Assembly (NCBI GenBank): GCA_039545315.1
Contig: BCIM01000006.1
Coordinates: forward strand, 911,126 to 975,125
DNA: 64,000 nt
Direction: 5' to 3'
Origin: Kondoa malvinella
Taxonomy: Eukaryota > Basidiomycota > Agaricostilbomycetes > Agaricostilbales > Kondoaceae
The notes under the pieces were generated by a model. That model was not told the DNA's origin and made no database searches. It was given only the letters and a program-made list of their open reading frames with translations. This document shows positions 6,385 to 51,700 of the stretch, piece by piece. Position 1 is the stretch's first letter. Each line of letters opens with the position of its first letter. The position numbers and the translations under genes were made by a program.

Positions 6385-7674
6385 CTATCTTACAACCGTG
6401 CTGGCATCTACAGGAACTTCCTTTGAAAAGAGCGACAACATGCTCTCGTATACACTGAGGTAACCATGAGCCAAATTGCTACCACTAGAAAGAGCATAAG
6501 ACTCACATGTAGAGCGTGATCGCGTTGGGCACCACTCTTAGCAGATGCGGACTCAGACCAGAGTAAAGTGTCGCGAAACCTTCTTCTTTAATGACGAGCT
6601 GGAACGTCTGCAGTAGACCAGTATATCGAGCTGGTTGATTAAGTGGTGGTGCTTGTCTTAATCTTGTCCTTACGACCTGTTCGGTAGAGACTACGTAAGC
6701 TCTTTAACAAGCAAAAGGCATCGCCCGACAAACCTCGTGTGGATATGTGATGACCGTCGCTATGAGTTTAGCCAATCCTGCAGCAGCTCCTTTCCCTGTA
6801 TATCCCTCACCATCTCCAGGCTGTTTCCTTCTCGCTGCCATCACCTTGAACTGCTCGTACAGCGTCCATTGTATCACACCCTCAGTAACACCCAAATACG
6901 ACGCTGATAATCCACGATAGAAGCCCTTGATCCCTTCTGTACGGAAGATGAGACGAATACATTCTACTGAATTCATAGGTCGTATTCGAGCTGCAGCAGT
7001 TGAATAAGCTCTTGTCCCCGTTGCGGCTTTCGCAGGCGCCTTCTTTCCTTCTGCATTCTCTTCTAATTGTAATCGAGTCTTGACTACCCATATTGGGTTA
7101 GTGGCTGTTCCAGTGAGGATACCAGCAGTTGCTGCAGATGCCAGATGCACATAGGCGTTTTCTTTCCCGTCATTCGTAAGCAGTCGAGTAAAGATGGGTT
7201 TTCCATTGCCATAGCTAAAGAAATTGATCGACCTGGCTGGGATGACGCCTACTAATGTTGGGCCTAGTCCTTTGAAAAGCGCTGTTGGACCTTCTTGTCG
7301 ATACGTATCTCTGCCGAAGAGAACATCAGCACAACAAGATCGTACTAGCAGCGTCGACGCACACCTAAGGATAGCGCCAGTCTCTACGAAATGATACAAC
7401 AGCTTGAGGATGCCTTTGCGCTGGTTGGCCGCTTGAGCAGCATAGAGCTGACTTTTCGAGCTAAAGACGTCCGATTGCAAGCGAGTCTTGACTAGATCAA
7501 AGGGCGCAGTCACACAGGCGCCAGCGAGACCACCGACACTTTTGATGCAGAAATTGCTTTCATCAGGCATGGACTTGAACAGCCAAAGCAATACTCTCAC
7601 CCTCCTGCTACCATGTGCAACCATGCTGGTGTCTGCCGTTCTACTGCAGCGCTGTTCGTGACAGCTTGAGGCAT
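6385..7674 (-). CDS. RIM2: Mitochondrial pyrimidine nucleotide carrier (RIM2 / SLC25A33-36 type)
   Basis: This carrier exchanges pyrimidine nucleotides across the inner mitochondrial membrane to supply matrix DNA and RNA synthesis. Three carrier signatures are visible: PFDLVKTRLQSD, PIWVVKTRLQ and, across an intron, PHE-VVRTRLRQ. The order and the VTAPFDLVKTRLQSD text are typical of RIM2. I start it at ATG 7674, giving MPQAVTNSAAVERQTPAWLH; removing the intron at 7539-7600 restores HMVAGGVGGLAG, the family's first-helix motif. Other introns lie near 7315-7365 and 6665-6735. A last intron near 6450-6500 joins NAITLY to a final exon that ends at 6385. The promoter side faces the plus-strand gene starting at 8102. 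Confidence 0.87.
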
Positions 7675-8101
7675 TCAAGGAGGTGATTGTATCGAAGCAA
7701 GAGAATTGATCAGTGCGCTTTTTGGCAGGCGCAGAGATCATAGCGCAGGTCCGCTTCTCAAAACCGCCTGTCGCAGCTATAGAACGTTGATGTGTCCGGT
7801 CTTCGTCATCAAGCTAAAGTACGCTTTCTCAAGCATCATCAGGTGCTCTCAGACAGTCTCAGAAGTTTGTATTGGGCAGAGCGCTGCATTGATGCCTTCG
7901 TGAACTATTTCTTGTTCTCTGTTCATCCTGTCAGCGCATCAACATCAGCGTGGTCTCGTGCTACATCCCTCTTCGTTGCGTTTTACGGAAGTACACCCAT
8001 CCCCTTGTTCTCTGGTGTCCGATGCAGTCTTCTAGACCGTCAGCTTCTTGTCGTATCTCTCGCTCTGCGCTTGCTCAGCGACCATTCTCTTCTCGTCGAG
8101 C
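7675..8101. promoter_or_regulatory. Divergent intergenic region between the RIM2 gene and an unknown membrane-protein gene
   Basis: About 430 bp separate the two start codons. Plus-strand open frames occur here (for example from 7792), but I could not connect them to a conserved product. They may be 5' UTR or an upstream exon of the following gene. No clear TATA box or repeat was identified. Confidence 0.35.
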
Positions 8102-11539: not shown

Positions 11540-12672
11540 GAATTCATAAACAAGCCAAATGATTTCCCTATGCTGTACTCTTTTCGCTTGGCTAGTACTA
11601 GTTGACGCATAGTAGGCGCCGTATGCGATCGCGGTCTATTCAAGAGGCCGAGCAATCGGGCCATAAGCGCAATCCGAGAGCTGCTACTGATCAGAGATTT
11701 GCTTAGCCAGACGATGTGCGTCCGCGGATGACATGTCCTTGAGTGTGTCGTTCGGAATCCTGAATCAGACCAGATTGATCATGATATACCGCATAAGATC
11801 GCCTAGCACCATCGAACAAGATCTTAGCAGGGAGGTTTACCTGTCTAGTCCTGCATTGGCAGAGTTCAGCAATGCTGTGTGATGAAATAGTCCGAAGAGT
11901 GTAAGAAGAGACCCGGAGCGATGTCACGATGGCTGCCTTGACCAGATGAAGAGCATGTTATAGACTGCGATGCGAAGACATAGTAGAGATGTAGAGATTA
12001 CGCTAGAGCAGGCAACATGTCATCATGTCTATTGAAGTACAGCGATAGCGTTAGGAAGGCGTAAGACACCAAGGGTAGTCAACGAATTGCCAAAGAGCAG
12101 GTTTGTGATTACGACGGGAGGGCTGTACGAGTCGAGCATAAGGAAGAGATGAAAAGCAGATAGCCGCGCACTGATTGCGACTCTTGCACAGCGAGATGGA
12201 GCAGATTGACCAATCAGCGGTTTTGCCGTAAAGCAGAACCGGTTCTGAGTTTAGGAGACCAAAGTGGATTTCAAATCGAGCCTCTCAATATGCGTCGAGA
12301 GGCCATACGAAGTAGGCAGTTGATACAGCATAGGTCACTGCGTGGAACCTTGCTGTTTAGACATCGCCAGAGGGTGACATGATGCTGAGACATTGCTTTG
12401 ATCTTGTCAAGACTCAAGCCATGCCGTGTGCTTTCGTCCTCTCTTCCCCTGCTGTGCTTTCCACCGTGATAGCCAACTAGCTTCACGTCGCCATACAATC
12501 AGAGCACCCTTCGTTTCATTGGTGACTCGAGCTGGGCTTGAGACTTGACCTTTTTGTCCTTATACTGCCTTGACTTGATTTCGATACCATCCTGGCGTTG
12601 CGGTTATTCCCTGTGCGACAGACCCGTGCTGTTCCATTCGCAAAAAGAGCCTTGCAGAGACAATTCATCAAC
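11540..12672. other. Long intergenic region upstream of histidyl-tRNA synthetase
   Basis: This 1.1 kb holds possible upstream exons of the small minus-strand membrane protein (11700-11930) and the promoter of the synthetase gene. An open minus ORF at 12271-12498 has no recognisable content. I see no RNA gene, repeat or mobile element. Confidence 0.35.
12598..12672 (+). other. In-frame, ATG-less, arginine-rich leader of HTS1 (possible mitochondrial presequence)
   Basis: Upstream of ATG 12673 the frame is open back to a stop at about 12567 but contains no ATG. From TTG 12598 it reads [20 protein letters not shown] and a few more residues: six Arg/Lys, no Asp/Glu. That composition is typical of a mitochondrial presequence. 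Many fungi make cytosolic and mitochondrial HisRS from one gene using two start codons. Here the upstream start would have to be near-cognate (TTG or CTG), or supplied by an alternative 5' exon spliced to the AG at about 12622. Confidence 0.55.
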
Positions 12673-14722
12673 ATGAGCGCAACAAGTTCTGTAGATATTG
12701 ATGCCCAAATTCAAAAGCAAGGCGATGTGGTCCGCCAAATGAAGGCCAACAAGGCAGAGAAGAGCGAAATAGATGCACAAATTGCTCTCTTGACAACTTT
12801 GAAAGCAGACAAGGCAGCCCTTACAGGACAAGATGCGTCGTCTGGCTCGAAAAGTAAAAAGGGCAAACAGCAGATCCAACTCAAAGTGCCTAAAGGGACA
12901 AAAGATCATCTACCTCATGAGATGTTGCTCAGGAATAAGATATTCAAGACAATCTCAGACATTTTCGAACGACATGGAGGTGTGACTATCGACACGCCAG
13001 TCTTTGAACTCAAGGAGATCCTCTCTGGCAAATATGGCGAAGACAGTAAGCTCATATATGACCTGCAAGATCAAGGAGGAGAGCTGTGCAGTTTACGCTA
13101 TGATTTGACGGTCAGTCTGCGGTCTGAACTGAAGCAGTTGTGCTTTGTATTCAGTTTCGTCACTGACAGGTCCCTTTCGCCCGCTTTCTGGCGATGAACG
13201 GAAGCACATATCAAAGCATCAAGCGCTACCACATTGCCAAAGTCTATAGAAGAGACAACCCGGCGATGACGAAAGGTCGAATGCGAGAATTCTACCAATG
13301 CGTAAGCCTCCTCCTCTCAGCCCTTGTCTAAACACTGATCAGCAGTGTAGGACTTTGATATAGCTGGCAATTACGATGCAATGGTGCCAGACGCTGAATG
13401 CCTAAAGATTGCCTGTGAGGTGCTTGATGGTCTACAGATAGGCGACTTTACCATCAAAGTACGCTCTGTTATAGTTTATAGACGAGTGGTTGATCAGTCT
13501 GGCAGGTCAACCATCGCAAAATTCTAGATGGAATCTTTACGGTCTGCGGTGTACCAGAAGACAAAGTTCGGACGATTTCGTCTGCTGTCGACAAACTAGA
13601 CAAGGTAGGATAGTTGCTACTAAGACTGACAAATGTGCTGATTGTCTCACACAGTCACCGTGGTCGGAAGTACGGAAAGAAATGACGGAAGAAAAAGGTC
13701 TCTCTGGCGATATCGCAGACCAAATTGGCGAATATGTTAAATTGAAAGGCCAGTAACAGTACAACTGCCTCACTTTGGCTTCATATTCATTCTTGTCTAT
13801 AGGCCAACAAGACCTGCTTGATCGCCTGATGAAGGACGAAAAGCTGACGGCAAACAAGACTGCCAAAGAGGGTCTAGACGATATGGCGACTTTCCTCAGA
13901 TACTTAACCATCTTTGGCGTACTTCCTCGAGTGAGTCGAGGCTCGGTATGCAAAGAAAAAAGCTAATCATCAGCAGATCTCTTTCGACCTATCCCTCGCT
14001 CGTGGACTAGACTACTACACAGGCGTGATCTACGAATGCATAACTGAAGCCTCTGCCCCTCCTGGTTTCTCGTCCTCATCAGCAACTCCAGCCGCTGCAC
14101 CTGTTCCTGCCCTTACACCGAAAAGCAAGTCGAAAAAGGATGACGAAGTAGACGAAAGCCAAGTCGGCGTTGGGTCTATCGCAGCGGGTGGCCGATACGA
14201 TAACCTCGTTGGCATGTTTGCTGCCGCTGCTTCGACGTCAAAGAACAAGGATGCGGGAAAGATACCTTGCGTTGGAATCTCGTTTGGTGTTGAGCGGATT
14301 TTCTCAATTTTGCAACAAAAGGCAATGAAAGAGACGGAACAGAAGATGAAGACGAAGGAAGTCGATGTTTTTGTCATGGCTATCGGTGGTGGTCTGTTGG
14401 AGGAGAGGATGCAAATTGCCAGCCAATTGTGGGACGCTGGCATTCGGGTGGGTCTTGGTCGTTACCATGTCGAAGATACGCTGACGTTGTCTGCTAGACC
14501 GAATACTCGTACAAGGCGAAACCGAAAGCCGCTGTTCAATGGGATGCTATTGATAAGGACGCAATACCATTCGTGGTCATCGTCGGACCGGAAGAGATGA
14601 AGGAAGGCAAAGTGCGAGTGAAAGAGCAAGTGGGTAAAGACGCCGCGGAAGGACGTGGAGAGGCTGTTGAGGTGCAGCAGTTGGTGGCTTACTTGAAGGA
14701 GAGGTTGCCGACTAGAGTATAA
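12673..14722 (+). CDS. HTS1: Histidyl-tRNA synthetase with N-terminal WHEP-like helix
   Basis: Class II HisRS charges tRNA-His with histidine. From ATG 12673 the protein starts with a lysine-rich helical hairpin ([15 protein letters not shown].., WHEP-like). Next come [15 protein letters not shown] and motif 1. Motif 2 is [19 protein letters not shown]. The HisRS signature 1 is [13 protein letters not shown], and signature 2 with motif 3 reads [11 protein letters not shown] and [10 protein letters not shown]. The C-terminal anticodon-binding domain ends LKERLPTRV at 14722. At least seven introns fall near 13110-13170, 13300-13350, 13460-13505, 13600-13655, 13750-13800, 13930-13978 and 14447-14500. 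An Ala/Pro/Ser/Lys-rich insertion lies after ..TGVIYE. Upstream, the frame stays open without an ATG (see the separate entry). Confidence 0.93.
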
Positions 14723-14733
14723 GAATGGAGTTG

Positions 14734-15858
14734 CTAGATTCGCGCAAATCGTTTCCAATTCTCTTCCAGCCGCGTTACACTGCGATGGTTCAGACATGAG
14801 CCGTTCAGATAAACAAGACTGACGTTTGCTCTACTGTCCAATCCTTTGCTTCGGCGATCATCTCTACAATCTCTGCCATTTTACCATCACTCCCGACAGG
14901 TGATGCCCAATCAGATTCTGCCAACAATTTATCTTCTGCAGCACTTTGTAACAAACCCTTCAATTTTGGACTTCTGGCATTGATGGTCGTAGAGAACGAG
15001 ACATAGATGTTTGAGAGTTTGGGTTTCTGCAATTGCCTCAGCGTTTCTGCGCTCCCGCCGAAAGAATGCAAATCGACATTGATTGCAGTCCATCCTTTCC
15101 CGTGCTTCTTTTGCATCTTTTGTAAAACAGCAACGAGCTGAGCTTGAGCTTGAACGCAATGCACACTAGCATTTCGGTTCAATTTCACCGCTAGATCGAG
15201 TTGAGCTTCTAAAACGGCGCATTGATGTTCGATGGGCGTTTTCAGTTCTGTATATTCTATTGGCGTGTCTTCTCGATTCGATATAGAATGCGGTGCGATG
15301 AGACCGCCGTATTTGGGTATGCGGAACGAGCGATCTAGTCCGATTTCACCTAGGAAGGAGGTTGGGTAGCGGGAGAGAAGACTTTCAATCCGAGCCCAGA
15401 ATACTGATGCGAGGATTGGATCGGGAAGACGAGCGAGTACTTCTGGTGTAAGATGAGGTGAGCTTAAATAGAGGGAAGTGTAGTGCGCTTCTTTGCTTGG
15501 TAAGGAGGTTTCAGAGGACAAAGCATGACAGAACCAAGGATGGATCCCTGCACAGCGTCTCTCAAAGAGTTGAAAGGCACACATGTACAAAGCACGGACC
15601 GAAGCAAGGGATGACCTTTTCACGAAACGAGTTGAACATGTCCTCGGTGATTTCTTGATTCACCAGGTTGGAAGACATGACACAGATCTTCAAGCAAAGA
15701 CAGCAGACTGAGAAACGAAAAGGATGAATAGCGCAAAGAAGCCTTGCCTGTTTGCATTCGACGTTGCCGACCTGGTCTTTGAGAGACTCGTAATTTGGCG
15801 TGTCATGTGGATGACAATGCACATCATGCAAGGAAGAGAGGAAGCGTGAGGCAGCCAT
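14734..15858 (-). CDS. TatD-family metal-dependent hydrolase (scn1-like)
   Basis: TatD-type proteins are metal-dependent hydrolases with a TIM-barrel fold, several with DNase activity; the S. pombe relative scn1 interacts with Cut9. The start at 15858 gives MAASRFLSSLHDVHCHPHDT, whose H-x-H pair is the first metal site. Then come ICVMSSNL, CFG-IHPWFCHAL, FLGEIGLDRSF (metal-binding Glu), NASVHCVQAQ, VDLHSFGG and LLAESDW. Splicing near 14771-14815 replaces an early stop and gives EQTVTRLEENWKRFARI, the usual family ending, with the stop at 14734. The intron after ..VECKQ begins GCAAGG, a GC-AG intron, with the acceptor before ICVMS. The stop lies 11 bp from the HisRS stop on the other strand, so the 3' UTRs must overlap. 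Confidence 0.82.
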
Positions 15859-15962: not shown

Positions 15963-17808
15963 ATGCCTGAACGCAAAAATGTCCTAGGTGAGCGAGATAA
16001 CCCTGGATGTGTCCCACTCTCGAGCTCACACGTTTGGTTGAATCTTTCCAGTTGTGAGCATCGCGTCGCACCCTGACTGAGGCGCACAGCTGAGTACTGC
16101 AACGATAATCAGACTGGTGGTGCAGGTGAGTTCTGACTACCAAACACCTTGCTTTGGCTGAACAGTGTCGTGTAAAGGCTATATCGGTCAGCTCCGCTCA
16201 ATAAGGCATTGTTGCAGATCTGACAGTCGTACAGGCTCGCACGTCGTCCTCTGCTGCTTGCTGGCCAACAAATACCGCGTCTGCACGATCGACAAGTAAG
16301 CCAGTGCACGCTCGAGCCGACTTTTCTTCCTGCTCATGCGTTTCGGTTCTATAGCTACCACAACTCGTTCCCAGAAGCTGTCAAGCGTGTCTCTCAAATC
16401 GCTCGCTCTGAACTAGGCGACAGCGCTTCTGAAGAGGACAAGGCTGCTACCGAAGTTGAAGTCTTCAAGGGAGACATTACCAACCCAAAGGACATTGACA
16501 ACATCTTTGAGTCATACAAGGACAAGGGAGGCATTTGGGGCATCATCCACATTGCTGCTCACAAGGCTGTTGGTGAGAGTGGTGAGAAGCCAATTCAGTA
16601 CTATCGAAACAACATCAACGCAACTGTCAACCTGCTTGATGTCAGTCAGCGTTCTGCTTAGCTTATACCTGAGCTTAGCGTTGCACGATGCTTCCTGACA
16701 GGCCTGCGACCGATATGGCACCCGACACATTGTCTATTCTTCCTCAGCAACAGTCTACGGCGCACCCACAACGATCCCTATCCCCGAATCAACTCCATTG
16801 AAAGCTGAATCTTGCTACGGCCGAACCAAAGTCATGTCTGAAATGATCATCAAGGACGTTTGCGATTCCGACCCGAAATCATGGCGCGCTATCGCTCTTC
16901 GTTACTTTAACCCAGCTGGTGCTCATCCATCGGGTCTAATTGGTGAAGACCCTAGAGGTAGACCTGGTAACTTGCTGCCTTTGCTCGCGCAGATGGCTGT
17001 AGGCAAGGTCAAGCCTGATTTGGAAGTGTTTGGTAACGACTACCCCACTCCAGATGGAACTTGTGTTGTAGGTTTAAATAAAGTAACAATCGGCTGCAGC
17101 TGACTAGGCATACAGAGAGATTACATTCACGTTGGTTTCACGTTGATTTGGACTATAGACATCTTACTCACATTTTGGTCAGGTCATGGATCTCGCTCAA
17201 GGTCACATTGACGCCATCAATGCTCTAGACAACGACGCCATCTTTGTACAAGAAAAGACTGACTCGAGTTTCGGTGGCTCGGGCGGAAAATTCAAGGCTT
17301 ACAACTTGGGCAAGGGCAAGGGCATGTCTGTGCTCAAGTAAGTTCGGAAGGATTCCAATTTGACGGGTGGCTGCTGATGTACTTTACAGCATGATTGAGG
17401 CTATGCGAGTTGCCAGTGGATTCGACTACAAGTGGAAGTGAGTTCCCTGCGGTCCTGCTGTTCAGGAGCAGAAGCTAACTCGATGCAAAGACTCGTTGGA
17501 CGCAGGTGCGCTCGCTGGACTATTTTGCTGTATTGCAGCTGAATAATCCGCTGTCCTGCACAGAATCGGAGATGTGCCAGATCTTACTGCTGACCCTGCT
17601 TTGGCCGAGAAGGAGTTAGGCTTCCTCGCCAAGTACAACCTTCAGGAGATGTGCCGGTACGCCGACAGTCTATGTGTGTGGTGAAACCAGGCTGACATGT
17701 CTTTCTAGTGATCAATGGAACTGGCAATCCAAGAACCCCAAGGTCAGTCCGAACGACTCACACCCACAGAATACACTGATACACAGAGCACAGGGCTACG
17801 AGACCTAG
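15963..17808 (+). CDS. UGE1: UDP-glucose 4-epimerase, encoded by a gene full of microexons
   Basis: The enzyme interconverts UDP-glucose and UDP-galactose with bound NAD. Exon 1 (15963-15987) gives MPERKNVL. To reach the invariant NAD-binding loop VTGGAGYIGSH, exons of 2 nt (16052-16053), 13 nt (16113-16125) and 9 nt (16178-16186) are needed before the 61-nt exon starting at 16235. Later exons carry [11 protein letters not shown] and [12 protein letters not shown], with the catalytic Ser/Tyr/Lys region completed by [37 protein letters not shown] and the C-terminal substrate domain follow. Two more 15-nt exons (17116-17130, RDYIH; 17491-17505, LVGRR) and a 33-nt exon ([10 protein letters not shown]) precede the last piece GYET, stop 17806-17808. 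There is no mutarotase domain, so this is a stand-alone epimerase rather than the yeast GAL10 fusion. Confidence 0.9.
16052..16053 (+). other. Predicted 2-nt exon of the epimerase gene
   Basis: Exon 1 ends CTA-G at 15987 (phase 1, GTGAGC donor). The exon encoding TGGAG begins ACT in phase 0 at 16113. Two nucleotides are missing for the invariant valine of VTGGAG. Between the two, TTTCCAG-TT-GTGAGC occurs at 16045-16059, so TT flanked by a perfect acceptor and donor supplies GTT. The motif is seen directly; use as an exon is inferred. Confidence 0.6.
16178..16186 (+). other. Predicted 9-nt exon of the epimerase gene
   Basis: GCTATATCG is flanked by GTAAAG and GTCAGC. Joined to the exon before it (..GCAG) and after it (GCTCGC..), it restores GAG-YIG-SHVV, the conserved NAD-binding loop; without it YIG is lost. 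Confidence 0.75.
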
Positions 17809-22703: not shown

Positions 22704-23125
22704 CTGCAGAGTATGTACGTTGTTGGTACTCAAGCTCAGAGCTGAATCATATGCGTACTAATCTGAATAACTACCCATTCCTCGACCTAGCTCAACATGA
22801 GTGTGTGAATTGGAGATGACGAGAAAACGCTTACGGACTTGTGGGGTCGGGTGTTTGGATTTCCTTGAGCGTGATTGTTAAGCGGAAGTCGGGAGTTGGA
22901 AGAGCGAGGAGTCAAATGGAGATGCAGGGAAGCAGAGGCTGGCTGTGTGAGGGTTTTCGCGTTTCATGTTTCATTTGGGCTCTGCATTGCATGGTATTTT
23001 CGCATCGCGTTCGACTGCTTCCCAGCCATAATCAGGTTTGCTTGCACTCTTGCCTAGCGTGTCCATGTTGTCCTTACTGCTATAGCTTCATCGGGAGTCT
23101 GGTGTTTCGCGGTTTCGCTCAAACG
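22704..23125. promoter_or_regulatory. Divergent region upstream of ERG28
   Basis: This 420 bp separates an unidentified minus-strand gene from ERG28. It may hold the missing first exon of the former (a GTAAGC donor lies on the minus strand near 22831). No repeat or RNA gene was seen. Confidence 0.35.
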
Positions 23126-23812
23126 ATGGACTCGCTCAAAGAATATCTGCCTGCGAGCGCTGGAGGCTGTAGGTGGACTGAAAGATAGATGCAACATGTG
23201 TCTTGATCTCTTGTTCATGTACAGATCTGCCCTATTGGATGCTATTCGTGCAAGTCGCCATGCAAGTTTAGTCGTCTGTCGACTCAATTGCTTGGATCCT
23301 TGCAGATCCTTCCTAGCCCTCTTCAACACTGTCCAAAACTTTACAACAACGAAACTAACGAAACGAGTTTATGGAGGTCGACCTGCTGAAGGTCCGTCCA
23401 TCTTGTCATGCATGAGAATTTATGCTGATATCAAAGCAGTAACTCCGCTGCAATCAAGAACGTTCGGTCTATGGACTTTAACAAGCGCGTTGATAAGGTC
23501 GTTTGCGGCTTACAACATCACAGACAAGTCGTGCGTTTGCTCATCGTTTGCTCTTTCTGAGCTAATTGATGAGAGTTGCGGACAGATGGTACAGCATCGC
23601 ACTAGCGACCTATGTGATCGTCTGCATGCACTACCTGAGCGAACTGTTCATCTTTCGGACGGCGAAGTTGAATGCTGGGTTGTTGAGTCCGCTGATAGTG
23701 GGAAGTAAGTGATCGTCTGCTTATGCTCTTTCATGAGCTAATGACGCATGGTCGTTTTACAGCGTTGTCGTTGGGATGGATGTCGCAGCAGTATGAGTAC
23801 TATGTCTCGTGA
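23126..23812 (+). CDS. ERG28: ERG28, endoplasmic-reticulum scaffold of sterol C-4 demethylation
   Basis: ERG28 is a small ER membrane protein that tethers the ERG25/26/27 C-4 demethylation enzymes in ergosterol synthesis. Spliced exons give MDSLKEYLPASAGG, YLPYWMLFV and ALFNTVQNFTTTKLTKRVYG, then VTPLQSRTFGLWTLTSALIR, SFAAYNITDKS and WYSIALATYVIVCMHYLSEL. FIFRTAKLNAG, SPLIVG and LSLGWMSQQYEYYVS follow, with stop at 23810-23812. The VTPLQxRTFGxWTLTSA..R..AAY and FRTA.L..G..SPLIV motifs and the hydrophobic helices match the family. Five introns are required, all with GT-AG ends and a CTGAC/CTGAT-type branch. Confidence 0.9.
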
Positions 23813-25962: not shown

Positions 25963-28900
25963 ATGGAGCCCTCAATACCTAAATTAAGCGATCATGCTAG
26001 CATCAAGACTAAAGCGGAGCCAGCAATTAGCCGCTCACTGCCCCCTCCTCGCTGTTCGCATTATACGAAGTTCCTTCTCTTTCTGGCATTGTTCTTCCTC
26101 TGCACCCCTTCTCTGGCTGTTATGATATCAAAGACAGGACTCTACCTAGCACTCTTGATCGGCGGTGCTGTGTCAACGCCTGCTCCAATCACTTTCGAGG
26201 ACCGAGTCAATGTCATTGCAAGACAATACAACAATGGCTCTGAACCAATCAATGCGAATCAGAACATCTCCGCACGTTAGTCTAGAGCGCTTGCTGTCCG
26301 ATCATCTGGCTGACTCTTGTGATCAGCTTTGACGAATGGAGGTGAATTGTGGTCAGAAGCATACGAGCGGACAAGAGACATCGTCTCTCAAATGACACTA
26401 GAGGAGAAAGTTCGCGTCATCACTGGTCAAATTGGTCGCTGTGCAGGAAATACCGGGGCTGTCGAGCGTCTAGGAGTGCCTGCTCTGTGCTTGCAAGATG
26501 GTAAGACTCTCTCCTGCGAATTGCGATTCAGAAAGCTGATGATACTCCAGGACCGGCGGGTGTCAGACCTGCGTTCGGGCAGACCCAATTCGCCCCCGAG
26601 ACTACTCTGGCAGCTACTTGGGATAGGGAATTGATCTACCAGTCTGCGAAAGCGATGGGTCAAGAGTTCAGAGATTTGGGTGTCAACATCGCTTTGGCAC
26701 CTGTTTCAGGTAAGGTCAATCGTACAATGCGACGACAGTTTACTTACAAAGGCTTTAGGAGGACCATACGGTCGATCACCTTTGGCAGGAAGAAATTACG
26801 AAGGGTTCCACGCAGATCCATACGGTAAGTCCATTCTCCAAGGTAATCTTTCCTGATTGCTTACAGAGAATCAGCTTGCGGCATGAGTGGATATGAATCC
26901 ATCCGTGGCATGCTAGATGCTGGTGTTTTGCGTCAGTCATTTGCCCGGAAATCATGCTGTAGCTGATCTTCCTTCATAGCAACTGTGAAGCACGTATGTA
27001 TCTAGTCTGCCACGAGAAAAAAGCTGATCTCCTAGAGATAGTACTTGGCCTACGGTATGTATGGAGTTTGCTATGAGAAATTAGCTGATTTTGTTGTTCA
27101 GAACAAGAAACTTATAGGAATTTGTATGGTGTCACCGCTAGTTATTCCGTGTTCCCTGCCAGCGAGCAGCTCCCTATCTCATCGAATGTCGGGGATAAAG
27201 CTACGCACGAACTTTACCTTTGGACCTTTGCGGATGCTGTCCGTGCGTAAGTCTGCAGCCTCTACAGTAGTGATTGCGGGTCGCTCATGTTTGTGCTTGT
27301 GCTTAATTTAGAGGCAGTCCATATGTGATGGTAAGGCAGAACTTCATCCTCTTTGAATCAACTAATCTTGCATGGAAAGTGTGCCTACAACGAAGGCTTG
27401 TCCTCCTCTGAAGCTGTCTGACGTAGCTGAAGATCTTCCAGTCAATCAAACCCACGCCTGTCATAATCGTGAGGTTTTTCAGGATGCAAGACCATCTTTG
27501 GACTGATGACGGCCTCTTTCAGAATACACTCAGAATGGCCTGCTCAAGACTGAATTGAACTTTGCTGGTGGGATCCTGTCCGAGTAAGTCTGAGATGCTA
27601 GGTCCGACTCGGAGCACTGACTTACTGTCTCGAAAGTTGGGGAGGAGTTTGGGCATCAGAAGAAGCTTCCATTGGTGGCCTCGATCTGCTCATGGTAATT
27701 CTCAGCTCACATACATTGTTATGCTGTCTCACGACCTCAAAGCCAGGTTTCGGTTACGGCGGAGCGCTTGGAACCTTTTGGGGACCCGTGAGCAGTCCTT
27801 GCAGTATGAGCGGCCAATTTCTCACGCGCGGACCATTCTAGGAATTGGTCGACCTGGTCAACAACGGCTCTGTTCCTCAATCACGAGTGGATGACTCGGT
27901 CATCCGCACCCTTACGCCTTACTATGCTTCTGGCCAAGTCGATGACCCTCTGCCTTCTGTTCCTTTTGATGCTGGTATGGCTCACCATGCACCTTTGCTA
28001 ATTATTCTAATTGCTGTGATAGTTGGAGCTGCTGGCAACATCACCTACCGCAACGTTCAGAAGAAGTCTACTTTAGAGCTGCTCAAAAAGATTGGTGAAG
28101 ATAGCGCCGTGTTGCTGAGCAACAAAGGTGGTCTGCCTCTCAAATCGCCTCAACGTATTGCTATCTTGGGATCTGATGCTGGACCTGGCGAACACGATCA
28201 AGCAGCAGGTGTGAGTTTTCGTCTGCCATGTCGACATCAAGTCGCTTACCTTGACTGTCTTAGGGTGCTTTCGGGTAGGTCACGATGTGTTTATCTCCAC
28301 TTCAACCGCTGACAACTGCATTTGTGTTTAATCAGTGATGGGTGTGACTATTTGAGCAACAATGGAACACTTTCCCTGGCATTCGGTTCTGGCTTTTCTT
28401 TCCCTCACAACCTGGTCACACGTAAGTCTCGTATCATTATTCAAGGGCACTACGCTGAGCTCTGTACTCAGCTCTGGCGGCCATCTCTCGTCGTGCTGCT
28501 GAAGATGGTTCGCTCGTCCGCTATTCGATCAACAACACCGACATAGAGTATGCTCAAGAGATTGCTGCAGATGTGAGCATGTCTTTCCATGCAGCGGATC
28601 TGTTTGATCATTGCCGCAGTCTGATGTCGTTCTTGTCTTTGCCAACTTCTGGACGGCTGAAGGCCAAGACCGAGTTGACTTGAAGCTCGGCGACAATGCA
28701 GAAGAGCTCATCGTGGCAGCAACGCAAGTCAGCGACAATGTCATTGTCATCCTGCACATCCCCGGTACAGCTGATCTTGAAGCCTTCGCCGACAACAAAA
28801 ACGTTACTGCGATTCTCGCACCTCTTCTTCCCGGCGAACAGACAGGCAACTCGCTCGTCTCGGTCCTGTATGGAGACGTATCCCCCTCTGGCAAGCTACC

Positions 28901-29534
28901 TTTCACTATCGGCAAATCGCTAGATGACTACATCCCCAACTCGATCGTTCAAGATCCGGTTTACGCACCTCAATCCAATTTCGACGAGGGCGTCAACATT
29001 GATTACAGATGGTTCGACTCACAAGGCATTGAGCCTCGCTTTGCCTTTGGTCATGGTCTTTCGTACTCCAGCTTTGGCTACTCGAACCTTCAGCTTAAAG
29101 AGACGTACAAGCCGGACGAGGCAGCCTACCAGAAGACAGCCGAGCCCTTTGAAGATTACGCAGAAGGTCTTTCGCTCTACGACATCATCGCTATCGCTTC
29201 CGTTGACATTACCAACACTGGCAAAATGGTCGCATGCGAAGTAGCTCAGCTCTACGTCCAATACCCAGAAGGTCTCGAACAACCGCCAAAGCAATTGAGA
29301 GGTTTCGAGAAAGTCAAGCAGTTGCAGCCTGGAAAGACCGAGACTGTCTACTTCCCTCTTAGACGCAAGGATCTGTCCGTCTGGGATGTCGTGAGGCAAT
29401 TGTGGAGAGTGCCATCTGGAGAATACGTGATGCACGTCGGTGCTTCGAGCAGAGACCTACCTTTGGTAAGTTTCTTCGTGGCATCAGGCATTGCTTAGCT
29501 GACGATGCGGCAGACTGCAACTTGGTCAAAGTAA
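25963..29534 (+). CDS. Secreted beta-glucosidase, glycoside hydrolase family 3
   Basis: GH3 beta-glucosidases release glucose from cello-oligosaccharides and wall glucans outside the cell. Two in-frame ATGs precede hydrophobic segments: 25963 (a long N-region before HYTKFLLFLALFFLC) and 26122 (MISKTGLYLALLIGGAVSTP, a classic signal peptide, perhaps the true start). The catalytic domain shows MTLEEKVRVITG, LCLQDGPAGVRP, NIALAPVSGGPYGRSPLAGR and YEGFHADPY. TVKHYLAYEQE, SPYVMCAYNEVNQTHAC and GGILSDWGGVWASEE (Asp nucleophile) follow, then LDLLMPG. The GH3 C domain and a Fn3-like tail close at ..SGEYVMHVGASSRD and TATWSK, stop 29532-29534. Many introns with exons of 13, 14 and 19 nt split the 5' half, and one intron (near 27400-27445) needs a GC donor. 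N-glycosylation sequons are frequent. Confidence 0.87.
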
Positions 29535-47216: not shown

Positions 47217-48369
47217 CTACTCCAAGCCAAAGAATCTCTTCATGGCTCTCCACGTAGTAAAGCTCAACGCCGTCCTTTCACGACCAATAAGCACACTACA
47301 ACCGAACACGGGAACAGTACTCACATGGGCACAATCTTGACATAACCCACACTCAGACCCACAAAGAAGCCTCTCCAACCATTCATCCTGTTTATCCCCT
47401 TGACAGTCTCTACGAAACCCATCCATTGCTCCGGATGGGTCAACCCGCCTACTTGCATCCTCCTTCTAATCACTTCGAATGGATACGAAGCAGTTTGTGA
47501 CATTGCTCCTGCCACTGCACCACTTGCTAGATCCAACAACGTTCTATATCTATCCCTGCTCGAAGGCGACAATAACGGCGTGTACCGGAAGAAAGCTTGT
47601 AGATTACCCCAGACGAGGAAAGAGGTACCAGCATAAGGTATCATGCCTAACATTGAAACGGAATAGCCTCGATAGAACTTTAAGATCGGGAATCGGTTGG
47701 TTAATGTTGGTCGAGCAGTTTGACCTTCAGTGTAGATTTTGCGAAAGGTTGTAGAGACTGAAACGCGCTCTGTCATGCTGTGTCGGATTTCAAATGCTAG
47801 TCGAACACGGATGAGTTCGAGTGGGTAGGTGAAGAAGACTGAAGTGATGCCTGCCATTGAACCGGCTGTGTAAAGTCGTAAGGAAGTTTGATCGGCTTGT
47901 GTCGGCATGAGCATCTGTCTTGACCGTCAGCGAAAAATCACAGTGGCAGCGAATGTCGTACCTGGTGAAAGAAGTCGTACGCCATGAACTTTATACCGGC
48001 GTAGGGAAAGATGCGAAGCAGAGTGACCGAATGGCCTTGCATAAGACCTCGCACGCCCGTTTCATTGTAGATCTGTCATCGCGACTTGCCTACATCAGCT
48101 ACAAGCCGAATGTAGTAGATCAAGCTGACCTGAGCTGTTGCCCGAAATGCACCAGCTAGAGAACCCGAATATTTTTGATACTCCTTCTGCTGGGTCTGGA
48201 GCAAGATCTTCACTCTGTCAAGCGGAGCGACCCCAGTTTTTGCTACGCTGCCTGCTATACCACCTGCTATACCGGAGAGCAGGACATCTTTGAGCGGTTT
48301 GACCTGCTTTTTGTGTGTCGTGAGTTGCTTGGACGCATCATCGTGCAGAACTATTGATGTGTCTGGCAT
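47217..48369 (-). CDS. LEU5: Mitochondrial coenzyme A carrier, LEU5 / SLC25A42 type
   Basis: This is a mitochondrial carrier family protein, probably importing CoA or a precursor into the matrix. The start at 48369 gives MPDTSIVLHDDASKQL. Three carrier repeats follow: SGIAGGIAGSVAKTGVAPLD with RVKILLQT, FTYPLELIRVRLAFE, and ASYPFEVIRRRMQVGG. VTLLRIFPYAGIKFMAYDFF and IPYAGTSFLVWGNLQAFFRY are typical even-helix signatures. The frame through PLDRVKILLQTQQKEY and GVRGLMQGHSVTLLRIFPYA supports LEU5. A final intron (about 47275-47330) joins VKIVPM to TALSFTTWRAMKRFFGLE, stop 47217-47219. An intron near 47914-48010 and one near 48085-48130 complete the model. Confidence 0.85.
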
Positions 48370-48796: not shown

Positions 48797-51700
48797 ATGG
48801 GGTCAGTCTGGCCTGTCCATACAGCTACACCCTCTCACTAATAGTGTATTTGATAGTATTCCAAAGTTGTCGGTCGACTCGCATTCAGTGATTGAACGAG
48901 ATCTGACAGCCTCGTCACTAGCTTCCGATGGATGTCAGAGAGGTACCCCCTGACTTCGCAGCTCATTCAAGAGGGCTCTATTCCAGAATTTGGCGAGTAC
49001 TCTCGTAGGCCCTGTAATTGCGATGCTGATCCGCTTGTATAGACAATCTCTATGTGAGCTTATTAATTACTCGATCTGGCCACAGCCTGACATGGTCTGC
49101 AGCTTGATATGAACGGTGTCATCCACAACTGCTCGCATGCCAACAATGAATCAGCGCACTATCGAATATCAGAAGAACAAATCTACCTCCAGGTCTTTGC
49201 CTACATTGAGCATCTGTTTGCTAAAATCAAGCCAAAGAAACTCTTCTTCATGGCTGTCGATGGTGTAGCTCCTCGAGCAAAAATGAACCAACAGCGATCC
49301 AGACGTTTCCGTACTGCTAGAGAAGCGAAAGAAGTCAAAGATCGCGCTCTAGCCAAAGGAGAAGAACTACCTGCCGAAGATGCTTTCGATTCCAATTGCA
49401 TCACGCCTGGAACACCTTTTATGGCTAGGCTATCGAAACAATTACAATACTTTATCGCAAAGAAAGTCAACGAAGACGCTGATTGGCGCGGCATACAAGT
49501 CGTTCTCTCCGGTCATGAGGTACCAGGAGAAGGAGAACACAAGATCATGGAATACATTCGACTAGCCAAAGCTCAATCAGATTACAACCCGAACGTCAGA
49601 CATTGTCTTTACGGTCTAGACGCAGATCTCATCATGCTCGGTCTCCTCTCGCACGACCCTCATTTCTGTTTGCTCAGAGAAGAAGTCGTCTTTGGTCCAG
49701 CAAGAAAGAAACAGCGCACATCACTCGAAACGCAAAACTTTTACCTCATGCATTTATCCCTCTTACGCGAATACCTCGATATGGAGTTCGCTTCATTAGC
49801 AGAGACTATCGAATTCGCATACGACCTGGAACGCATCATTGATGATTTCATTCTGTTGTGCATCTTTGTTGGCAACGATTTCTTGCCGCATTTACCTGGC
49901 TTGCACATCAACGAAGGCGCCTTGAACCTCTTATATGGGATATATAAAAAGGTCTTACCGAAAGCTGGTCAGTGCCAGACCGCTTCTGACTGATGCAGTT
50001 TTTAATCCTGTTGCATTCGACAGGCGGCTATATTAACGAACATGGTACATTGAATGTCAAGCGACTGCAAATGGTTCTAGATGAACTAGCTCAATTCGAA
50101 CAAGATACGTTCGAGCAAGAATTTGCAGACTCGAATTGGTTCAAGGGCAAGCAGCAAAGTACCATTAGCGCTTTAGAGAAGGCTCGGGCGAAATCAAAAC
50201 TAGGTCAGTCGGTTCATCATGTGCTGTTTCGGTAGCTCAAATCGTTCACCTGTCTGACAGTCCTAACCCAAGATCAGCGTTACCTCTTTAACGAGATTGC
50301 CAAATTTGTTCGAATGACCTTTTCTTCGCCCACGCCTGGAGCGCAAGTTCAATTCCCAGCTGTCTATCCAGCAAGAGATAGACGATTCCTACAAGACCTC
50401 GCGAATGCTTTACATCTCTCTATCGCCTTTGACGAGTTTGACGATAATGATGAACCCGTCATTGTGCTTCGATTTGATGAAGACGTCTTTGCGTCCATGA
50501 TGGAAGAGCTTAGTCTGAATGGAAAAGAAGAAGAAGGCGAATGGAGGGATGCGGTCGACAGAGTATTGAACAAGTATGAGAAGGCGCAGACGCTGGAAGA
50601 TCAGAGCGAGAGTGATTTCGAAGAGGCGTACGAGGTCAAGTTGAAGGAGAAGATGCATGTCTGGAAGAAGGAATACTATCAGGTTCGTGCTTTGCGACTG
50701 CTTTGGATTTGGGCTAATTCGGCAGAAACGTTGGACAGGAAAAGTTCAAATTCGATATGGATCAATCCCCGGAAGAGCTGCAACAGCTCTGCTACCGATA
50801 TGTAGAAGGCCTGCAGTGGGTGCTCCACTACTATTACAACGGTGTCGCCTCTTGGGGATGGTTCTATGACTATCACTACTCGCCAAAGATTTCGGGTCAG
50901 TAGCGTGCGAATAGCTTTGATACTTGCTAAGTATTGCGTAGATTTGTGCAATATCGCCGACTTCAAGTTCGACTTTAAGCTCGGCTTTCCTTTCAAGCCT
51001 TTCGAGCAACTCATGGGAGTCTTGCCGGATCTGAGTAATCAACACATACCTGCCGCGTACAAAGACCTTATGACTGATCCGGAGTCACCCATCATTGATT
51101 TCTACCCAAGAGACTTCGAAACAGACATGAACGGCAAGAAACAAGATTGGGAAGCTGTTGTCAAGATTCCCTTTATTGATCAAGACCGTCTTCTGGCTAC
51201 GATGGCTACTCGCGAGCACCATTTGACAGCTGAAGAGCGGTCACGCAATTCTTGGGGCAATAGCTGGAGTTGTACTTGGGAAGCTGGAAGAGATGCGGTT
51301 TTCGCCTCGCCTCAACCTGGTTTCTTGCCGGATCTATACCATTGCGGATCTGTGCTTGCGTCATTTGACCTTCCGACGCTTAGCGGTCTCAAACTGGTCA
51401 AGGGTCTTTGTGAAGGTGTTTTACTCGGCAAGGATGCAGTCGCTGGCTTCCCCTCGCTCTTCACTCTGCCTCACTCTGGCCAGCTCGGCTTCCACGGTGT
51501 TGCAGTATTCCAAGGAGACAGCAAGAACGAAACTATGGTCTTGACTATTGAGAACACGTTCGAAGGCGTTGTGGTGGAAGACATCGCCAAAGAGACGGTC
51601 GGTAAGACTGTCTATGCTGGCTGGCCATTTCTCAAAGAAGCGCTTGTTACTGGTATATCGGACGATCTTTTCCGCTATGAGATGGACCAGAACTCTGGCA

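Follow-up and report, generated by a model that had tools for sequence, protein, structure and literature searches.

A predicted two-nucleotide exon in the UDP-glucose 4-epimerase gene of Kondoa malvinella

The best reading of the start of the UDP-glucose 4-epimerase gene of Kondoa malvinella is a five-exon structure in which the second exon consists of the two nucleotides TT. Judging from the sequence, we consider it highly probable that this exon, at positions 16052 to 16053 of the window (the whole 64,000-nucleotide stretch of contig BCIM01000006.1 analysed here), is constitutive, that it lies between two ordinary short introns of 64 and 59 nt taken out one after the other, and that it restores a valine at the front of the NAD-binding loop.

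Results

Identity and overall structure of the epimerase gene

The gene, of the GalE/GAL10 type, extends from 15963 to 17808 on the forward strand, as do all its features described below. Fourteen exons are predicted (25, 2, 13, 9, 61, 286, 366, 15, 155, 48, 15, 93, 34 and 15 nt), six of which are no longer than 15 nt. Joined across GT...AG introns, all 13 of which measure 48 to 64 nt, they give one frame of 378 codons plus a stop ending at 17808, and a predicted product of 378 amino acids. The three 15-nt exons in the remainder of the gene lie at 17116-17130, 17491-17505 and 17794-17808.

The predicted protein scores 363.4 bits against the TIGR01179 galE model, above the curated cut-off of 262.3, and by this score the enzyme is assigned as UDP-glucose 4-epimerase GalE with predicted activity. 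A solved UDP-glucose 4-epimerase (PDB-code: 3enk) matches residues 4-376 with an E-value of 2.1e-93, and the bifunctional GAL10 protein (PDB-code: 1z45) matches with 6e-86. Among the matches listed, Sporobolomyces proteins are the closest named homologs, at 73% identity, and every named protein within the top 33 of 120 listed comes from a genus that we take to belong to the Pucciniomycotina. A search of the genome (19.1 Mb in 20 contigs) with the full-length protein found a single epimerase locus; a paralog with fused exons was sought in the same way, and the search returned only the locus at 15963-17808. The other places in the genome with a PF01370 domain correspond to other members of the family. 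Because one epimerase locus was found, a working product would be expected from it.

The five-exon start

The loop VTGGAGYIGSH is encoded across the first five exons. Exon 1 (coding part 15963-15987, 25 nt) specifies MPERKNVL and the G of a valine codon and ends in phase 1; the usual pattern in homologs at this point is K-x-[IV]-L-[VI]-TG or R-x-L-V-TG. Intron 1 (15988-16051, 64 nt) has the form GTGAGC...CCAG and carries CTCAC with its A at +40 from the donor, and intron 2 (16054-16112, 59 nt) has the form GTGAGC...TCAG and carries CTGAG with its A at +39. Between them lies the exon TT, which completes the valine codon. It is followed in phase 0 by the 13-nt exon ACTGGTGGTGCAG (16113-16125; TGGA and a further G), intron 3 (16126-16177, 52 nt), the 9-nt exon GCTATATCG (16178-16186; completing G, then Y-I, and beginning the next G), intron 4 (16187-16234, 48 nt) and exon 5 (16235-16295, 61 nt). 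Over the tiny exons the codons run G plus TT for valine, ACT GGT GGT GCA G, GC TAT ATC G, and GC TCG CAC. The distribution of the loop over five exons with a 2-nt TT exon, as the original prediction had it, is thus borne out by the GT...AG introns and the GalE frame of 378 residues; the exon lengths of 25, 2, 13 and 9 nt agree with the joined translation, and the phases at the end of exon 1 and the start of the TGGAG exon had been read correctly.

The predicted TT exon has two hallmarks of a microexon: it is internal and far smaller than a normal exon while its acceptor (CCAG) and donor (GTGAGC) are intact, and it is required for the frame and for the conserved protein, as seen from the stop on skipping and from the enumerated routes described below. 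Skipping TT alone shifts the frame and leads to a stop after 54 residues.

Splice routes and the conserved valine

Routes leading from the start codon at 15963 into the TGGAG exon were enumerated, with no more than a single exon in between. With GT-AG introns 23 routes are in frame and free of stops, and VLVTGGA results from the TT route only. When GC-AG and AT-AC introns are also allowed there are 121 stop-free routes, and again only the TT route gives VLVTGGA. Valine or isoleucine stands directly before TGGA in the short products of 6 of the 121 routes, the TT route included; the other five, whose sites (GCAAAA, GCGTCG, GTCCTA, GCACCC or GCGAGA) bear little resemblance to the usual donor, were discarded. 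A route reading on into intron 1 as far as a donor at 16065 (GTCGCA) was rejected at a donor score of -4.8 bits.

The residue at issue is strongly conserved. The motif TG[GAC][AS]G[YF]IG is present in 128 of the 149 homologs fetched, and it is preceded by valine in 113, by isoleucine in 12, and by arginine, glycine and tryptophan in one each; these last three are gene models from Mixia, Melampsora larici-populina and Puccinia striiformis. Of the 21 homologs without the fixed motif, five lack the segment and 16 keep valine or isoleucine, followed there by a variant loop that reads PGGAGYIG in 13. The valine-bearing product scores 363.4 bits against TIGR01179; the score drops to 357.8 when the valine is removed, to 355.9 for the product of the single 102-nt intron discussed below and to 355.5 with read-through. 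These differences favour the TT route but are modest, 5.6 bits being lost with the valine.

Splice signals and chance expectation

Splice sites were scored with matrices built from 11 introns of the epimerase gene. The acceptor at 16051 scores 5.4 bits (rank 23 of 260 nearby AGs) and the donor at 16054 5.9 bits (rank 18 of 205 GTs). Both sites flanking TT had been called perfect; they are canonical and good, but not perfect. The acceptor of intron 2 at 16112 is weak (0.1 bits, rank 144 of 260), and a rival AG at 16089 reaches 7.3 bits (rank 9 of 260).

The introns of this gene share further signals. A G occupies donor position +5 in 13 of 13, and a CTNA with its A at +33 to +41 is found in all 11 other introns as well as in introns 1 (+40) and 2 (+39). 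The first AG after this CTNA is the acceptor in 10 of the 11 other introns and in both introns flanking TT; in intron 1 the CTCAC is followed first by the AG of the TT acceptor at 16051, ahead of the one at 16089. The branch-like motif of intron 2, CTGAG, departs from CTNAY. For comparison, 28 introns of other genes in the window were picked by hand from an ab initio model (introns of no more than 70 nt between exons of 35 nt or longer, those of the epimerase excluded): 17 show the CTNA spacing, 11 the spacing together with the first-AG rule and 21 a G at +5, counts that are rough because the model is imperfect and some of the introns are doubtful. The CTNA spacing occurs behind 13.5% of all GTs. 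The near-constant distance from donor to CTNA in all 13 epimerase introns (+35 to +40) could serve as a gene-finding rule for this genome.

Chance expectation was estimated with dinucleotide shuffles of the interval, the outer sites being kept fixed. In 20,000 shuffles, the pattern AG-TN-GT flanked by two introns of 40 nt or more arose in 4.1%, YAG-TN-GTNNG in 0.5% and YAG-TN-GTRAG in 0.1%, and in none of the 20,000 did a TN exon have an acceptor and a donor that both equalled or exceeded the scores of the real sites. With the CTNA spacing and first-AG rule imposed, any 2-nt exon arose in 3 of 50,000 shuffles and a TN exon completing valine in 1 of 50,000. These last two figures are illustrative, since the criteria were derived from the same epimerase gene.

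Alternative readings of the 5′ end

The chief rival is the removal of one 102-nt intron (15988-16089), as the main form or as a minor isoform, with AEYCNDNQ in place of the valine. According to the original prediction the phases force the TT exon, and a single intron across the gap would shift the frame or delete the valine; the phases by themselves do not force it and the second statement is wrong, because this intron keeps the frame without a stop, and it is the conserved protein that argues against the intron. Its donor is good (8.3 bits), its acceptor scores 7.3 bits, a CTGAC lies 13 nt upstream of its AG, and an ab initio dynamic-programming gene model, which had no knowledge of branch points and was allowed the TT exon, chose the 16089 route. 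The intron would, however, be nearly twice the usual length, the 11 other epimerase introns having 48 to 61 nt. Its CTNA at +40 lies 61 nt from the AG with the AG of 16051 in between, while its acceptor-proximal CTNA is at +88 rather than at +35 to +40 as in the other introns of the gene. In the protein, the valine or isoleucine found in 125 of the 128 motif-bearing homologs would be swapped for eight mostly polar residues ahead of the glycine-rich loop, and the TIGR01179 score falls by 7.5 bits. On account of the length, the motif at +88, the earlier AG and a polar insert in what appears to be the sole epimerase gene, we prefer the TT route and regard the 102-nt intron as quite unlikely. The case is a caution that automatic annotation may settle here on an intron that looks plausible but would be wrong.

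Three other readings deserve less credence still. In a [D1,2] stwintron, a type known in fungi (PMC9024468, PMC12403724), the intron 15988-16051 would split an outer donor, G/TTGTGA (slashes mark exon or intron boundaries), so that CTA is joined to ACT with no valine. Such an arrangement exists formally, from G15987 and TTGTGA, and stays in frame, but its donor CTA/GTTGTG scores -3.3 bits against 5.9 for GTT/GTGAGC three bases further on, and the product loses the conserved residue and 5.6 bits, which makes this reading very improbable. We attach similarly little weight to an error in the sequence or assembly, in which a wrong base count within 15980-16125 would mask a simpler structure. The genomic sequence is that of one assembly and was taken as given; against an error, the remainder of the gene needs no correction, with 14 exons in a single frame, and the error would need to fall at a place where two complete introns happen to meet at TT (3 of 50,000 shuffles for any 2 nt). 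Hardly credible, finally, is the use of another first exon to provide the protein start, with exon 1 as drawn unused. From an upstream ATG at 15407 and a donor at 15446, a single-intron route ends in ...ERVLL before TGGAGYIG, which is somewhat family-like, but MPERKNVL plus valine fits the family N-terminus better, and the upstream route depends on an intron of 667 nt whose donor is poor (-3.7 bits) and lies opposite the TatD-type open frame at 14808-15659 on the minus strand. No family-like end was obtained from the other in-frame GT or GC donors between 15300 and 16072 (ATG from 15200 on, one intron to 16113).

The same site in rusts, Mixia and other relatives

Among the listed homologs, 28 gene models from Pucciniomycotina were sorted by name by hand. 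The pattern of strand plus loop is intact in 19 of 19 models outside the rusts and Mixia and in three of nine within them (Fisher p 0.0002, a value that is too optimistic because several models come from one species and are dependent). The models of Mixia (MVLG...ALTR/TGG), of Melampsora larici-populina (KKTILG/TGG) and two of Puccinia striiformis (ELSW/TGG and RRTILG/YIGSH) are broken at this site, and the loop is absent from the Austropuccinia model. A P. coronata model was counted as broken but is doubtful, the valine being kept (CLCLV/TGG). The epimerase records P0019, P0022, P0029, P0030 and P0061 from rusts and Mixia look wrong at the protein start, all at the same spot; P0018 is doubtful.

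Two Cronartium-like sequences (82% and 85%), on contigs of 1423 and 1745 nt that by their length appear to be transcripts, keep isoleucine or valine. Of eight sequences without a species label that were checked, seven are intact; P0044 is without the segment. This rust-like sequence comes from a contig no longer than 1855 nt and its frame begins only after the loop, so that it may be a transcript with a frame break here or may simply be shortened.

If real, the TT exon may account for several of the faulty rust and Mixia gene models. The comparison suggests that exon 1 ends at the same place and phase in some rusts and in Mixia, a 2-nt exon and a single 15-nt exon fitting alike. A shared 2-nt exon is weakened as an interpretation because P. 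coronata is explained just as well by an AG/TNACN acceptor followed by a 15-nt exon, and a plain 15-nt exon in the rusts and Mixia would explain the same broken models. If relatives do have the 15-nt exon TNACNGGNGGNGCNG, this would suggest that an intron was gained between TT and ACT in the present lineage. One could go further and suppose that the ultra-small exon is old, common to rusts, Mixia and this fungus and long preserved in an enzyme gene, and that it imposes an obligatory two-step splicing checkpoint; as failure at TT leads to an early stop, the fidelity of splicing would then set the level of epimerase. We regard this extended proposal, for which the broken models (six of nine in rusts and Mixia, none of 19 elsewhere) are indirect support, as unlikely.

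XRN1 and neighbouring genes

Tiny exons are no exception in this genome: besides the epimerase, XRN1, the second of the two genes examined closely, has exons of 12 and 11 nt. The 5′ part of XRN1 (48797-49967, forward strand) has exons of 5 (coding), 12, 71, 11 and 865 nt and includes one GC-AG intron (48993-49042, GCGAGT). Joined, the exons give MGIPKFFRWMSERYP...EFDNLYLDMNG, and the product matches a solved Xrn1 (PDB-code: 9e70) from residue 1 with 4e-106. The start of XRN1 is likely to be overlooked by automatic models, and the ab initio model used here missed it; the ends that this model assigns to XRN1, the GH3 glycosidase and the mitochondrial carriers appear unreliable.

Pfam scans place a histidyl-tRNA synthetase (12574-14600), a TatD-type DNase (14808-15659), Erg28 (23058-23705), a GH3 glycosidase (28608-29495) and two mitochondrial carriers (6707-7813 and 47324-47926) in the neighbourhood. 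No GAL pathway partner was found among the 20 of 57 listed open frames in the window that were scanned by Pfam.

Discussion

A proposed order of splicing

In fungi of this kind, short introns are probably recognised by intron definition. Introns 1 and 2 would each be defined in this way and, being two bases apart, would be excised one at a time: with so little room between the 16051 acceptor and the 16054 donor, the two sites could hardly be occupied simultaneously, and the sequential removal of the two introns is therefore a reasonable assumption. The mature mRNA would read ...CTA/G-TT-ACT..., its valine closing the first strand of the NAD-binding fold.

If intron 1 left first, the donor of intron 2 would stand in the context GTT/GTGAGC (5.9 bits), with a competitor three bases upstream, CTA/GTTGTG (-3.3 bits), whose use would lose the valine. 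By analogy with other very small exons, the downstream intron may instead leave first. In human cells given SRRM4, the downstream intron was out first in 58% of SRRM4-dependent microexons of up to 51 nt (PMC10250204), and PMC4674806 recounts a potato exon of 9 nt at which the second intron goes before the first. A transcript that skips TT would be a likely target of nonsense-mediated decay.

Should the structure be as predicted, it would offer a clean natural test of how the spliceosome handles an exon too small for exon recognition. Its advantages as a test case are that the neighbouring introns, each near 60 nt, carry ordinary signals, that the genome search found a single locus, and that mis-splicing is easily read out.

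Comparison with known systems

A stwintron is defined by an inner intron that interrupts a splicing motif of an outer one (PMC9024468, PMC12403724). The TT arrangement resembles [D1,2] stwintrons in that two introns would have to be removed in succession. There, however, the inner intron splits the outer donor, whereas here all sites are intact and the 2-nt exon would stay in the mRNA. The donor GTGAGC of intron 2 is contiguous, and the split-donor alternative combines a score of -3.3 bits with loss of the valine. Every splice site being contiguous, the arrangement falls outside the strict definition of a stwintron, and the stwintron-like label that had been suggested for it does not apply. 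The ratchet points of recursive splicing in Drosophila (PMC8605326) likewise place an acceptor beside a donor and imply stepwise removal, but their sites abut and lie in long introns, while here the introns are of about 60 nt and TT stands between acceptor and donor and is needed in the mRNA. As these two bases remain, the locus is not a ratchet point.

Exons this small had been described as very rare in fungi. Rare they are, but cases of 1 nt have been published, and XRN1 supplies exons of 12 and 11 nt within the same window. A literature search by phrase for a 2-nt exon yielded nothing that looked relevant from titles and abstracts, and one on very small exons in Cryptococcus gave no result. 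The fungal lipS gene is reported with two 3-nt exons (PMC5639578). For the bglA genes of basidiomycetous yeasts, comparison with cDNA gave minimum exons of 5 and 6 nt (PMC9142197); these are also small exons in intron-dense genes, with a GC-AG intron too, although the gene is a different one and the smallest exon has 5 nt. Arabidopsis APC11 contains a single-nucleotide exon (PMC4674806) that, like the exon predicted here, is ultra-small and constitutive, and for which sequential intron removal was proposed; it differs in being a plant gene with a 422-nt interval, studied there with reporter constructs.

The closest parallels are fungal. In Cryptococcus neoformans var. grubii exons go down to 1 nt (PMC3990503). 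It too is a basidiomycete rich in introns, which are short (median 56 nt), and its gene structures are based on RNA-seq; the statement there is genome-wide, and the section that makes it describes no individual tiny exon. In the CYP621A P450 genes of Fusarium, a 1-nt exon is backed by RNA reads and 20 orthologs (PMC12940212). As in the epimerase, a phase mismatch across a conserved motif is met by an ultra-small exon, which most automatic models miss there; the differences are the length of 1 nt against 2 here, the ascomycete host, and the RNA reads and 20 orthologs available for that gene. The Fusarium paper claims the first fungal case (PMC12940212), yet the Cryptococcus paper of 2014 already gives 1-nt exons (PMC3990503). 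Since ultra-small exons are already known, the gain from the Kondoa gene would be a good model case and no new principle; with 1-nt exons published, the predicted TT exon extends a known phenomenon, of which we consider it, with fair confidence, an extreme new case.
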